This document shows positions 4,045 to 30,878 of a stretch of 64,000 nt of DNA, in pieces. The translations under genes were made by a program, and so were the position numbers. The notes beneath the pieces are model-generated. The model saw only the letters and a list, made by a program, of their open reading frames with translations, searched no databases and was not told the DNA's origin. The stretch's first letter is position 1. Each line of letters begins with the position of its first letter. The DNA is from Candidatus Nitrosopumilus sp. (GTDB taxonomy: Archaea; Thermoproteota; Nitrososphaeria; Nitrososphaerales; Nitrosopumilaceae): assembly GCA_003331425.1 (NCBI GenBank), contig QOOS01000004.1, positions 38,006-102,005 on the forward strand, written 5' to 3'.

Positions 4045-4989
4045 ATGGTTGAGATAGGTCGTCCTGTGAAAGATATTGAAATTGATTCAAATACTTCAAT
4101 TGAAAAAATCTTTGAAGAATTATCACAATCTGGTGGATTTGAATCTGTGAATCTTTCAGATGGATTAGATATTTTAACTAAAATGATTTCTGATGAAAAA
4201 TGTTTGAAATTTGTTTCATTCGTAGGTGCAGTTGTTTCAACTGGATTGAGAGGAATAATAAAAGATATGATCAAAAACAAATGGTTTGATGTAGCAATTA
4301 CAACATGTGGTGCATTAGATCATGATATTGCAAAACATTTCTCAAATTATCATGAGGGTTCATTCACAATGGATGATAATGAATTGGCTGATCAAAATAT
4401 TCATCGATTAGGAAATGTATTAGTTCCAATGGATAATTATGGACCACTCATTGAAGAAAAAATGCAATCATTTCTTGAAGAAGAATACAAAAATGGCGTA
4501 AAAGAAATGTCCACTGCAGAAATTTGTAAAATGATTGGAAAACATATGGGTGAAGATTCTTTTCTTTACTGGGCATACAAAAATGACATTAGTGTAGTAG
4601 TACCTGGAATCATGGATGGTGCAGTTGGAAGTCAAATCTGGATGTTTACACAAAATCATAGTGATTTTAAATTAAATTTAGTTGGAGATGCAAATTTACT
4701 TTCAGGTTATATTTTCAAAGCAGAAAAATCAGGAGCTTTTATGATTGGTGGTGGAATTTCAAAACATCATACTTTATGGTGGAATCAATATAGAGAAGGA
4801 TTAGATTATGCATTTTACATTACAACAGCTCAAGAATTTGATGGAAGTCTAAGTGGAGCATTAGTAAGAGAAGCAATTTCATGGGGAAAAGTAACAAAAA
4901 TTGCACGTCAAGCAACATTACATGCAGAGGTAACAACAATTTTACCTTTCATTTATTCTGCATTATTGTCAAAATTAAAAAAGAGTTAG
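4045..4989 (+). CDS. dys: Deoxyhypusine synthase
   Basis: 314 aa; deoxyhypusine synthase motifs (FVGAVVSTGLRGIIKDMI, CGALDHDIAKHF, FMIGGGISKHHTLWWNQYREGLDYAFYITTAQEFDGSLSGA). Confidence 0.92.
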   Translation: MVEIGRPVKDIEIDSNTSIEKIFEELSQSGGFESVNLSDGLDILTKMISDEKCLKFVSFVGAVVSTGLRGIIKDMIKNKWFDVAITTCGALDHDIAKHFSNYHEGSFTMDDNELADQNIHRLGNVLVPMDNYGPLIEEKMQSFLEEEYKNGVKEMSTAEICKMIGKHMGEDSFLYWAYKNDISVVVPGIMDGAVGSQIWMFTQNHSDFKLNLVGDANLLSGYIFKAEKSGAFMIGGGISKHHTLWWNQYREGLDYAFYITTAQEFDGSLSGALVREAISWGKVTKIARQATLHAEVTTILPFIYSALLSKLKKS

Positions 4990-28236: not shown

Positions 28237-28935
28237 TTAATCTTCACTAAGTAGTTGTTGAATCATTCCATCAATGTGTCCTGTTTGACCAAATGAAACA
28301 TCTCTTAGAATTCCTTTTCTGTCTACTAAAATTACTGATGGTGTACCTTGAAGTGAAAAATTTTCAAATGTTTCAGCAGAATATTCTTTAGTTTTCATAT
28401 GATCTTTTACTCTTTGTATAATTTGATTTCTATAGTCTTCTGGTTGTGAATCAAAGTTTGGAATTTGTGGATAGATAAACTCTAATATTTTTTCTTGACT
28501 AATTTCTCCAGAACTTTTTGTTAACTTGTCCATTCCTAATGGAAATGGAATCTTAAATGATAATTTGTCTCCTTCTTGTAATTGTCCATATTGTGATAAT
28601 GCACTTTTTGTTTCACCAACTACTTCTCCAGTTTCTGCTAACATCTTCAAGTTATCTAAAGTATTTTTATCAAAATCTTCAAATGCAGTTGCAAGACCCA
28701 AAACCCTTACTCCTTCATCTTTATACTTTTCATAAATGCTGATTGCTTCTGGAATTGCATGCATAAAACATCCCGGACAATTTACTTGAAATACTTCTAG
28801 TAATACAATGTGATCTTTTTCCTGATCAAAATTTGTTGGAGCTCCTTGTACCCAATCTGAAACTCCAAAGTTAGGTGCTTTTTCACCTATTTTGACTGCC
28901 ATATCATCAGGTCTGATTTTTTCGGATAAATACAT
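28237..28935 (-). CDS. TlpA/redoxin-type thioredoxin-fold protein
   Basis: LLEVFQVNCPGCFMHAIPEAISIYEKY (CPGC), C-terminal GTPSVILVDRKGILRDVSFGQ. Confidence 0.82.
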   Translation of the reverse strand: MYLSEKIRPDDMAVKIGEKAPNFGVSDWVQGAPTNFDQEKDHIVLLEVFQVNCPGCFMHAIPEAISIYEKYKDEGVRVLGLATAFEDFDKNTLDNLKMLAETGEVVGETKSALSQYGQLQEGDKLSFKIPFPLGMDKLTKSSGEISQEKILEFIYPQIPNFDSQPEDYRNQIIQRVKDHMKTKEYSAETFENFSLQGTPSVILVDRKGILRDVSFGQTGHIDGMIQQLLSED

Positions 28936-29001: not shown

Positions 29002-29490
29002 TTGCAGGCAGTAACTGATGAACGATTGGCCCTTTTTGCAGAAATGGAATCAAAATATGAAAATAGTGATATTGAATATTTTGTATCTTTACTGAATCAT
29101 CCTGATTATGTTGTACGAACACGGGCTACTTGCATTTTAGTAGATTTTGGTGGAGAAGATAAAATTCCACATATTGCCAAAGTTTTGAAAAATGATGATA
29201 ATGAACTAGTTCGTCATGAGGCTGCTTTTTCATTAGGTCAGATGTCTTATTCTGCTGCTATTCCTCCACTGATTGATTCAACTCTAAATGATCCAAGCAT
29301 GTTTGTACGTCACGAAGCAGCTATCGCTTTGGGTGTTGTGGGAAACAAGGAGGCAAAAGAGACTTTACAAAAAGCATTAAACGATCCAGACAAACCCGTA
29401 GTGGAATCTGCTGTAGTTGCTTTATCAAATATTGAATTTATGGAAACTTTAAGTAAGAATGAAAAATTTGCTAAATTAACAGGTGGATGA
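29002..29490 (+). CDS. HEAT-repeat protein resembling one half of deoxyhypusine hydroxylase
   Basis: NELVRHEAAFSLGQMSYSAAIPPLIDSTLNDPSMFVRHEAAIALGVVGNKEAKETL: two HE motifs 32 residues apart. Confidence 0.8.
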   Translation: MQAVTDERLALFAEMESKYENSDIEYFVSLLNHPDYVVRTRATCILVDFGGEDKIPHIAKVLKNDDNELVRHEAAFSLGQMSYSAAIPPLIDSTLNDPSMFVRHEAAIALGVVGNKEAKETLQKALNDPDKPVVESAVVALSNIEFMETLSKNEKFAKLTGG

Positions 29491-30332: not shown

Positions 30333-30878
30333 ATGTCATCTGATATCCAAAAACTTCCAAAGTTTCCTTGTGTTGATTGTCATACTGATTGTTGTAAGGA
30401 ATATACTATTTTTGTTAATGCTCATGATGTTTATCGACTTTCCAATGGTTTGAATTGTAAACCTGAAACTTTTTTAGAATTGATTGGTGCAAAAGATTAT
30501 TCATTGGGAATAAAAGTTGAAGAAGGTTTAGTAGATCTTGCTTTAAAACAAAAAAATAATGCATGTAAATTTCTTGAAGAAACTGATGAAGTTTTTAGAT
30601 GTACAGTTAATGATTTCAAACCAGGTGTGTGCAAATCATATCCATTTGAAATGAAAAATGGTAAATTATCTCAAATGAGTGATATCATGTGCCCTACTGA
30701 TTGGGATCTTACTGGCTTTAAAGAAATGATGGTACCTCATTTACAAAAAGATGAATCTGAATGGAAGTTTTATGATCAACTAGTAAAGGAATGGAATTCA
30801 AAACATGAGGGGGAATCATTATCTATATTTCTAAAATTCATGTTAAATCAAGTCGAATTATCTCTTAAAGTGCAATAA
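30333..30878 (+). CDS. YkgJ-type cysteine cluster protein
   Basis: FPCVDCHTDCCKEYTIFVNAHDVYRLS...CKFLEETDEVFRCTVNDFKPGVCKSYPFE. Confidence 0.85.
   Translation: MSSDIQKLPKFPCVDCHTDCCKEYTIFVNAHDVYRLSNGLNCKPETFLELIGAKDYSLGIKVEEGLVDLALKQKNNACKFLEETDEVFRCTVNDFKPGVCKSYPFEMKNGKLSQMSDIMCPTDWDLTGFKEMMVPHLQKDESEWKFYDQLVKEWNSKHEGESLSIFLKFMLNQVELSLKVQ

Follow-up and report, generated by a model that had tools for sequence, protein, structure and literature searches.

A half-size HEAT-repeat protein of the Nitrososphaeria is a strong candidate for the missing archaeal deoxyhypusine hydroxylase

The window analyzed here, a stretch of 64,000 nucleotides from the genome of a Candidatus Nitrosopumilus species, encodes a HEAT-repeat protein resembling one half of eukaryotic deoxyhypusine hydroxylase (DOHH) and, elsewhere in the same stretch, a homolog of deoxyhypusine synthase (DHS). 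The features relevant to the analysis are the following.

4045-4989, plus strand: deoxyhypusine synthase homolog DHS1 (first step of the pathway; one of two in the genome; Pfam DS, 331 bits)
29002-29490, plus strand: half-size DOHH-like HEAT protein (162 residues, TTG start, TGA stop)
29209-29226, plus strand: first VRHEAA motif (H72-E73), followed by LGQ; aligns with H56-E57 and H207-E208 of human DOHH; invariant in 126 orthologs
29305-29322, plus strand: second VRHEAA motif (H104-E105); aligns with H89-E90 and H240-E241 of human DOHH; invariant in 126 orthologs
29467-29490, plus strand: C-terminal tail FAKLTGG and stop codon; disordered in the AF2 model; TGG kept in 118 of 126 orthologs

The open reading frame at 29002-29490 was confirmed as delimited in the original prediction, and the segment quoted there is exact. 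As also stated there, VRHEAA occurs exactly twice in the frame, with the histidine codons starting at 29215 and 29311, 32 residues apart; the spacing of about 33 residues ascribed to the His-Glu pairs of DOHH is indeed 33 in both halves of the human enzyme, from which the window protein deviates by one residue. Pfam detects generic HEAT families only (HEAT_2 and HEAT_PBS), and the AF2 monomer (mean pLDDT 92) presents nine helices and four HEAT repeats, equivalent to one DOHH arm. Such a Pfam result would suit an ordinary PBS-lyase-type HEAT scaffold devoted to protein contacts, in which the His-Glu pairs are structural or fortuitous, as would the observation that designed consensus HEAT proteins lacking those pairs align as well as DOHH. 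Yet the His and the Glu of each repeat never vary across 126 orthologs, which come from two orders and several families. His-Glu pairs are missing from the other HEAT proteins inspected, and the scores of natural scaffold HEAT proteins lie far beneath that of DOHH. Given the invariance of these residues, this reading, which had been the alternative offered initially, becomes much less likely and is here considered improbable.

The prediction had been made to depend on the conservation of the His-Glu residues among orthologs, and in this comparison it held: all 126 distinct orthologs keep the pattern His-Glu-x30-His-Glu, with R71, H72, E73, G79, Q80, R103, H104 and E105 all invariant. These orthologs are mostly close relatives, but members sharing 36 to 54% identity with the window protein show the pattern as well. 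Every ortholog is half-size, the fused form being absent among those inspected. The genome's other HEAT_2 protein, along with its relatives, has no such pairs, and neither does a HEAT protein of 414 residues. A search of 300 genomes of the phylum gives matches that separate cleanly into two groups, one with E < 1e-58 and the other composed of weak, generic HEAT hits. To the former belong the 44 genomes sampled from the window's family, without exception, together with two other families of its order and some members of families f30, which includes Candidatus Caldarchaeum, and f45. When 84,980 prokaryotic genomes were considered, the relatives listed included Nitrosopumilus, Nitrosarchaeum, Nitrosotenuis, Cenarchaeum, Nitrososphaera, Caldarchaeum and two Bathyarchaeota-labelled metagenome-assembled genomes (MAGs). 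Archaea account for each of the best 80 among 276 relatives, and by name nearly all of these are of the Nitrososphaeria type, apart from one Caldarchaeum and the two Bathyarchaeota-labelled MAGs; the segments matched to human DOHH in these 80 are at most 39% identical, and no full-length, two-arm DOHH was found among them with human DOHH as the query.

Eukaryotic DOHH is composed of two four-repeat arms arranged in a symmetrical dyad, with an iron centre that arises from the cooperation of the arms (PMC8153317). Its iron anchors are H56, H89, E90, H207, H240 and E241, while E57, E90, E208, E241 and two glycines have been implicated on the substrate side (PMC9117371). The four repeats of the window protein align in register with each of these arms, so that H72-E73 corresponds to H56-E57 and H207-E208, H104-E105 to H89-E90 and H240-E241, and LGQ to LGQ. 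Each arm of human DOHH also has a substrate-side glycine beyond its first His-Glu pair (LG63Q, LG214Q), and this too is present in the window protein, G79-Q80 being invariant. A profile of 21 orthologs searched against the PDB retrieves human DOHH as the top natural protein, with 139 bits, followed among natural proteins by YibA (45 bits) and Rpn2 (44 bits), although designed alphaReps, which consist of numerous near-consensus repeats, also score highly. In a plain phmmer search against the PDB these designs top everything, since the scores of many repeats add up, and for this reason DOHH was ranked against natural proteins only, a ranking verified with the profile, the reciprocal search and Foldseek. 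The reciprocal search with human DOHH (query sequence checked against PDB 4d4z) gave matches in 28 of 41 related genomes, with the half-DOHH gene as the top match in all 28. Foldseek places DOHH (4d4z) at rank 11 for the AF2 monomer, as the sole natural protein in the top 36, the others being designed alphaReps. By these three approaches the window protein is therefore nearer to DOHH than to other natural HEAT proteins, and reciprocally so. The AF2 monomer superposes on DOHH with an rmsd of 4.2 over 141 columns and a TM score of 0.74, a fit that does not surpass that of designed HEAT proteins, and hhalign assigns the DOHH alignment a probability of 98.6% over 116 columns. Identity to the N- and C-terminal arms is about 32% and 30%, respectively, compared with 37% between the arms themselves, and these values of only about 30% belong to a repeat superfamily in which designed consensus proteins also score highly. 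In a phylogenetic tree the two DOHH arms are sisters (support 100/99), on long branches, as expected if the half-size form is the older one and was duplicated into eukaryotic DOHH.

The C-terminus of the half-DOHH orthologs constitutes a separate observation. It follows the pattern F-A-K-x-T-G-G (for instance in loci L077, L088, L089 and L034), with TGG at the very end of the protein in 118 of the 126 orthologs, whereas basal families end in PHP, PRP or other residues instead. A conserved terminal Gly-Gly is unusual on a protein without a ubiquitin-like fold. The possibility that TGG is a mere by-product of the ribosome-binding site of an overlapping downstream gene was rejected because TGG persists at loci whose following gene is convergent or lies far away.

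With regard to the remainder of the pathway, the deoxyhypusine synthase that had been placed at 4045-4989 of the same window is real by its Pfam match. It lies 24 kb from the half-DOHH gene, a distance that would arise by chance in about 8% of cases and that means little alone. The genome also harbors a second DHS-family gene (G000:C16:28551-29444) and a single aIF5A gene, in which the context of the substrate lysine, TSKPGKHGAAK, is kept. Two distinct synthase families, DHS1 and DHS2, coexist in these archaea and form a convergent pair in several Caldarchaeales (L077:5626-7566). At L171:1255-2592 (contig C9 of G000), the aIF5A gene is followed, judging by eye, by a Dph6-like gene, related to diphthamide amidation, and then by an SRP54-like sequence, so that two translation-factor modification themes would adjoin at this locus. 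According to reviews, an archaeal deoxyhypusine hydroxylase has never been found (PMC6105217; PMC8153317), and hypusine has been reported for Sulfolobus acidocaldarius and other crenarchaea (PMC5178350). A control search of S. acidocaldarius returned no HEAT_2 match, on which grounds the half-DOHH gene was rejected as the source of Sulfolobus hypusine; since this organism has hypusine and lacks the gene, the family is not a general archaeal solution. The literature searched, which did not extend to subscription papers and preprints, yielded no hypusine measurement for Nitrososphaeria, and spermidine has been found in cultures of another ammonia-oxidizing archaeon (PMC8573960).

Synthase genes occur near the half-DOHH gene in some Caldarchaeales. 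At one locus of this order (L077, genome G192), 75 bp separate the half-DOHH gene from a divergent DHS gene, with another DHS gene directly adjoining the latter; Pfam confirms both synthases. In two further genomes (G109 and G077), which belong to one genus and count as one observation, a DHS gene is located 5 kb away. By chance, a gene would come this close to either of two DHS genes in about 0.2% of cases at 75 bp and about 1.4% at 5 kb. This arrangement is seen in only three of the six Caldarchaeales carriers, and no synthase was found within about 8 kb of the half-DOHH gene in the other lineages. In Caldarchaeales genomes of group g45 (L078:6147-7555), the half-DOHH gene adjoins a CGI-121 (KEOPS) gene and a ThiS/Urm1-like gene, with a gene that looks by eye like Sua5/YrdC nearby, outlining a cluster of tRNA-modification genes. 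The neighbours in the Nitrosopumilaceae are a divergent thioredoxin-fold protein, a cupredoxin and Mre11-Rad50. The first of these, encoded at 28237-28935 on the minus strand, is a thioredoxin/AhpC-fold protein with a CPGC motif, divergent from the half-DOHH gene in most Nitrosopumilaceae loci compared; that it might serve as the electron donor is a guess. Two genes downstream of the half-DOHH gene, at 30333-30878 on the plus strand, a CxxCxxCC protein (putatively zinc- or iron-chelating) is encoded, and it recurs in only some Nitrosopumilaceae loci.

These neighbourhoods bear on a further reading, namely that the protein is a DOHH-like HEAT oxygenase, homodimeric and with a diiron site, that acts on another substrate, be it a different protein residue or a polyamine. 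Conservation of ligand residues is a separate matter from substrate specificity, the nearest conserved neighbours in the Nitrosopumilaceae, the largest family, are not synthase genes, and many of these genomes possess a second, paralogous family bearing His-Glu pairs (A2), which indicates that the scaffold has diversified. Against this stand the adjacency to synthase genes in the Caldarchaeales, the presence of both the synthase and the substrate lysine in the genome, and the fact that DOHH is the only known enzyme with such an arrangement, and we regard action on a different substrate as rather unlikely. The same paralog raises a second possibility, that of a non-catalytic, DOHH-like iron protein (a sensor of iron or O2) or of a half that needs a different partner, such as A2 in a heterodimer, given that A2 keeps both pairs at the same spacing. 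Of the Nitrosopumilaceae inspected, only some encode A2; it was not found in the genome of the window, where a single His-Glu protein of this kind is seen (assembly 96.6% complete). Barring an assembly gap, this makes an obligate heterodimer with A2 unlikely, and the sensor or heterodimer reading as a whole seems very improbable.

DOHH requires O2, and the distribution of heme-copper oxidases is of relevance in this regard. Among 24 genomes of the window's order outside the Nitrosopumilaceae, a heme-copper oxidase is encoded by all ten carriers of the half-DOHH gene and by seven of 14 non-carriers. In the Caldarchaeales the oxidase occurs in five of six carriers and in 19 of 38 non-carriers; the genome of the sixth carrier is 81% complete. 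Outside the window's family, 15 of the 16 carriers tested thus encode the oxidase, with a pooled Fisher p of 0.0012 that ignores shared descent, and for the Caldarchaeales alone the link is not significant (p = 0.14). Hence, the co-occurrence fits an oxygenase, if weakly.

The proposed resemblance to DOHH is therefore borne out by the reciprocal best match, the four-repeat register, the presence of both His-Glu pairs and of LGQ, the strict conservation of these residues, the synthase neighbourhood in the Caldarchaeales and the aerobic hosts. On the sequence evidence, identification of the window protein as a half-DOHH is well supported, and we put at roughly 60% the probability that it is a half-size, probably homodimeric deoxyhypusine hydroxylase. 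One hallmark of DOHH, the two arms with four His-Glu pairs in a single chain of about 300 residues, is absent from a protein of 162 residues with two pairs. Because four pairs in one chain are missing, we do not call it a canonical member; it is a half-size variant that probably works like DOHH. Each chain would correspond to one DOHH arm, with its four HEAT repeats, and contribute two His-Glu pairs, and two identical chains may pack face to face about a twofold axis, like the arms of the eukaryotic enzyme. The four His-Glu pairs of the dimer would then hold two irons in a diiron site, at which O2, in the presence of a reductant, would give rise to a peroxo-diiron state. The predicted substrate is the deoxyhypusine made by the synthase on the lysine of aIF5A (TSKPGKHG), which would be hydroxylated to hypusine, and eukaryotic DOHH could have originated by duplication and fusion of such a half.

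A broader proposition, to which we give about even odds, is that this family represents the first archaeal DOHH, an obligate homodimer of a single arm that preserves the state prior to duplication and fusion, confined mainly to O2-using Nitrososphaeria and some Caldarchaeales, with the Sulfolobales making hypusine by another route. The protein is a strong candidate for the missing archaeal DOHH, and it provides a named, small and widely distributed candidate for how archaea make hypusine. If this is correct, a eukaryotic enzyme of translation-factor modification would have its unfused ancestor here, and some of the ocean's most abundant archaea would build a diiron site at the interface of two copies of one chain. 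The archaeal hypusine problem would in that case split in two, as S. acidocaldarius lacks the gene.

The family was compared with three known systems. The PBS-lyase-like HEAT proteins (CpcE/CpcF, NblB, YibA and MTH187) and the designed alphaReps share with it the superfamily, the repeat length and the Pfam families HEAT_2 and HEAT_PBS, but the natural members score much more weakly (45 bits or less) and the alphaRep repeats inspected have no His-Glu pair at these positions. The Nitrosopumilaceae paralog A2 (L043:7935-8423, L044:7601-8080, L045:7529-8017 and L046:7782-8270) has HEAT repeats, a similar length and two His-Glu pairs at the same 30-residue spacing. It differs in having lost LGQ (replaced, for example, by IAARN), in its Trp-rich first repeat and in being only about 35% identical over the repeat core, and it is possibly another diiron HEAT enzyme. 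Eukaryotic DOHH (EC 1.14.99.29; human PDB 4d4z; yeast Lia1) shares with it four HEAT repeats in register with each arm, two His-Glu pairs in each arm, the first of them followed by LGQ (at a pair spacing that differs by one residue), a conserved Ser/Thr in the last repeat (ES/ET) and co-occurrence with the synthase and IF5A. The archaeal protein, on the other hand, consists of one arm rather than two, with two His-Glu pairs per chain, and carries an extra N-terminal helix pair and the conserved C-terminal TGG tail.
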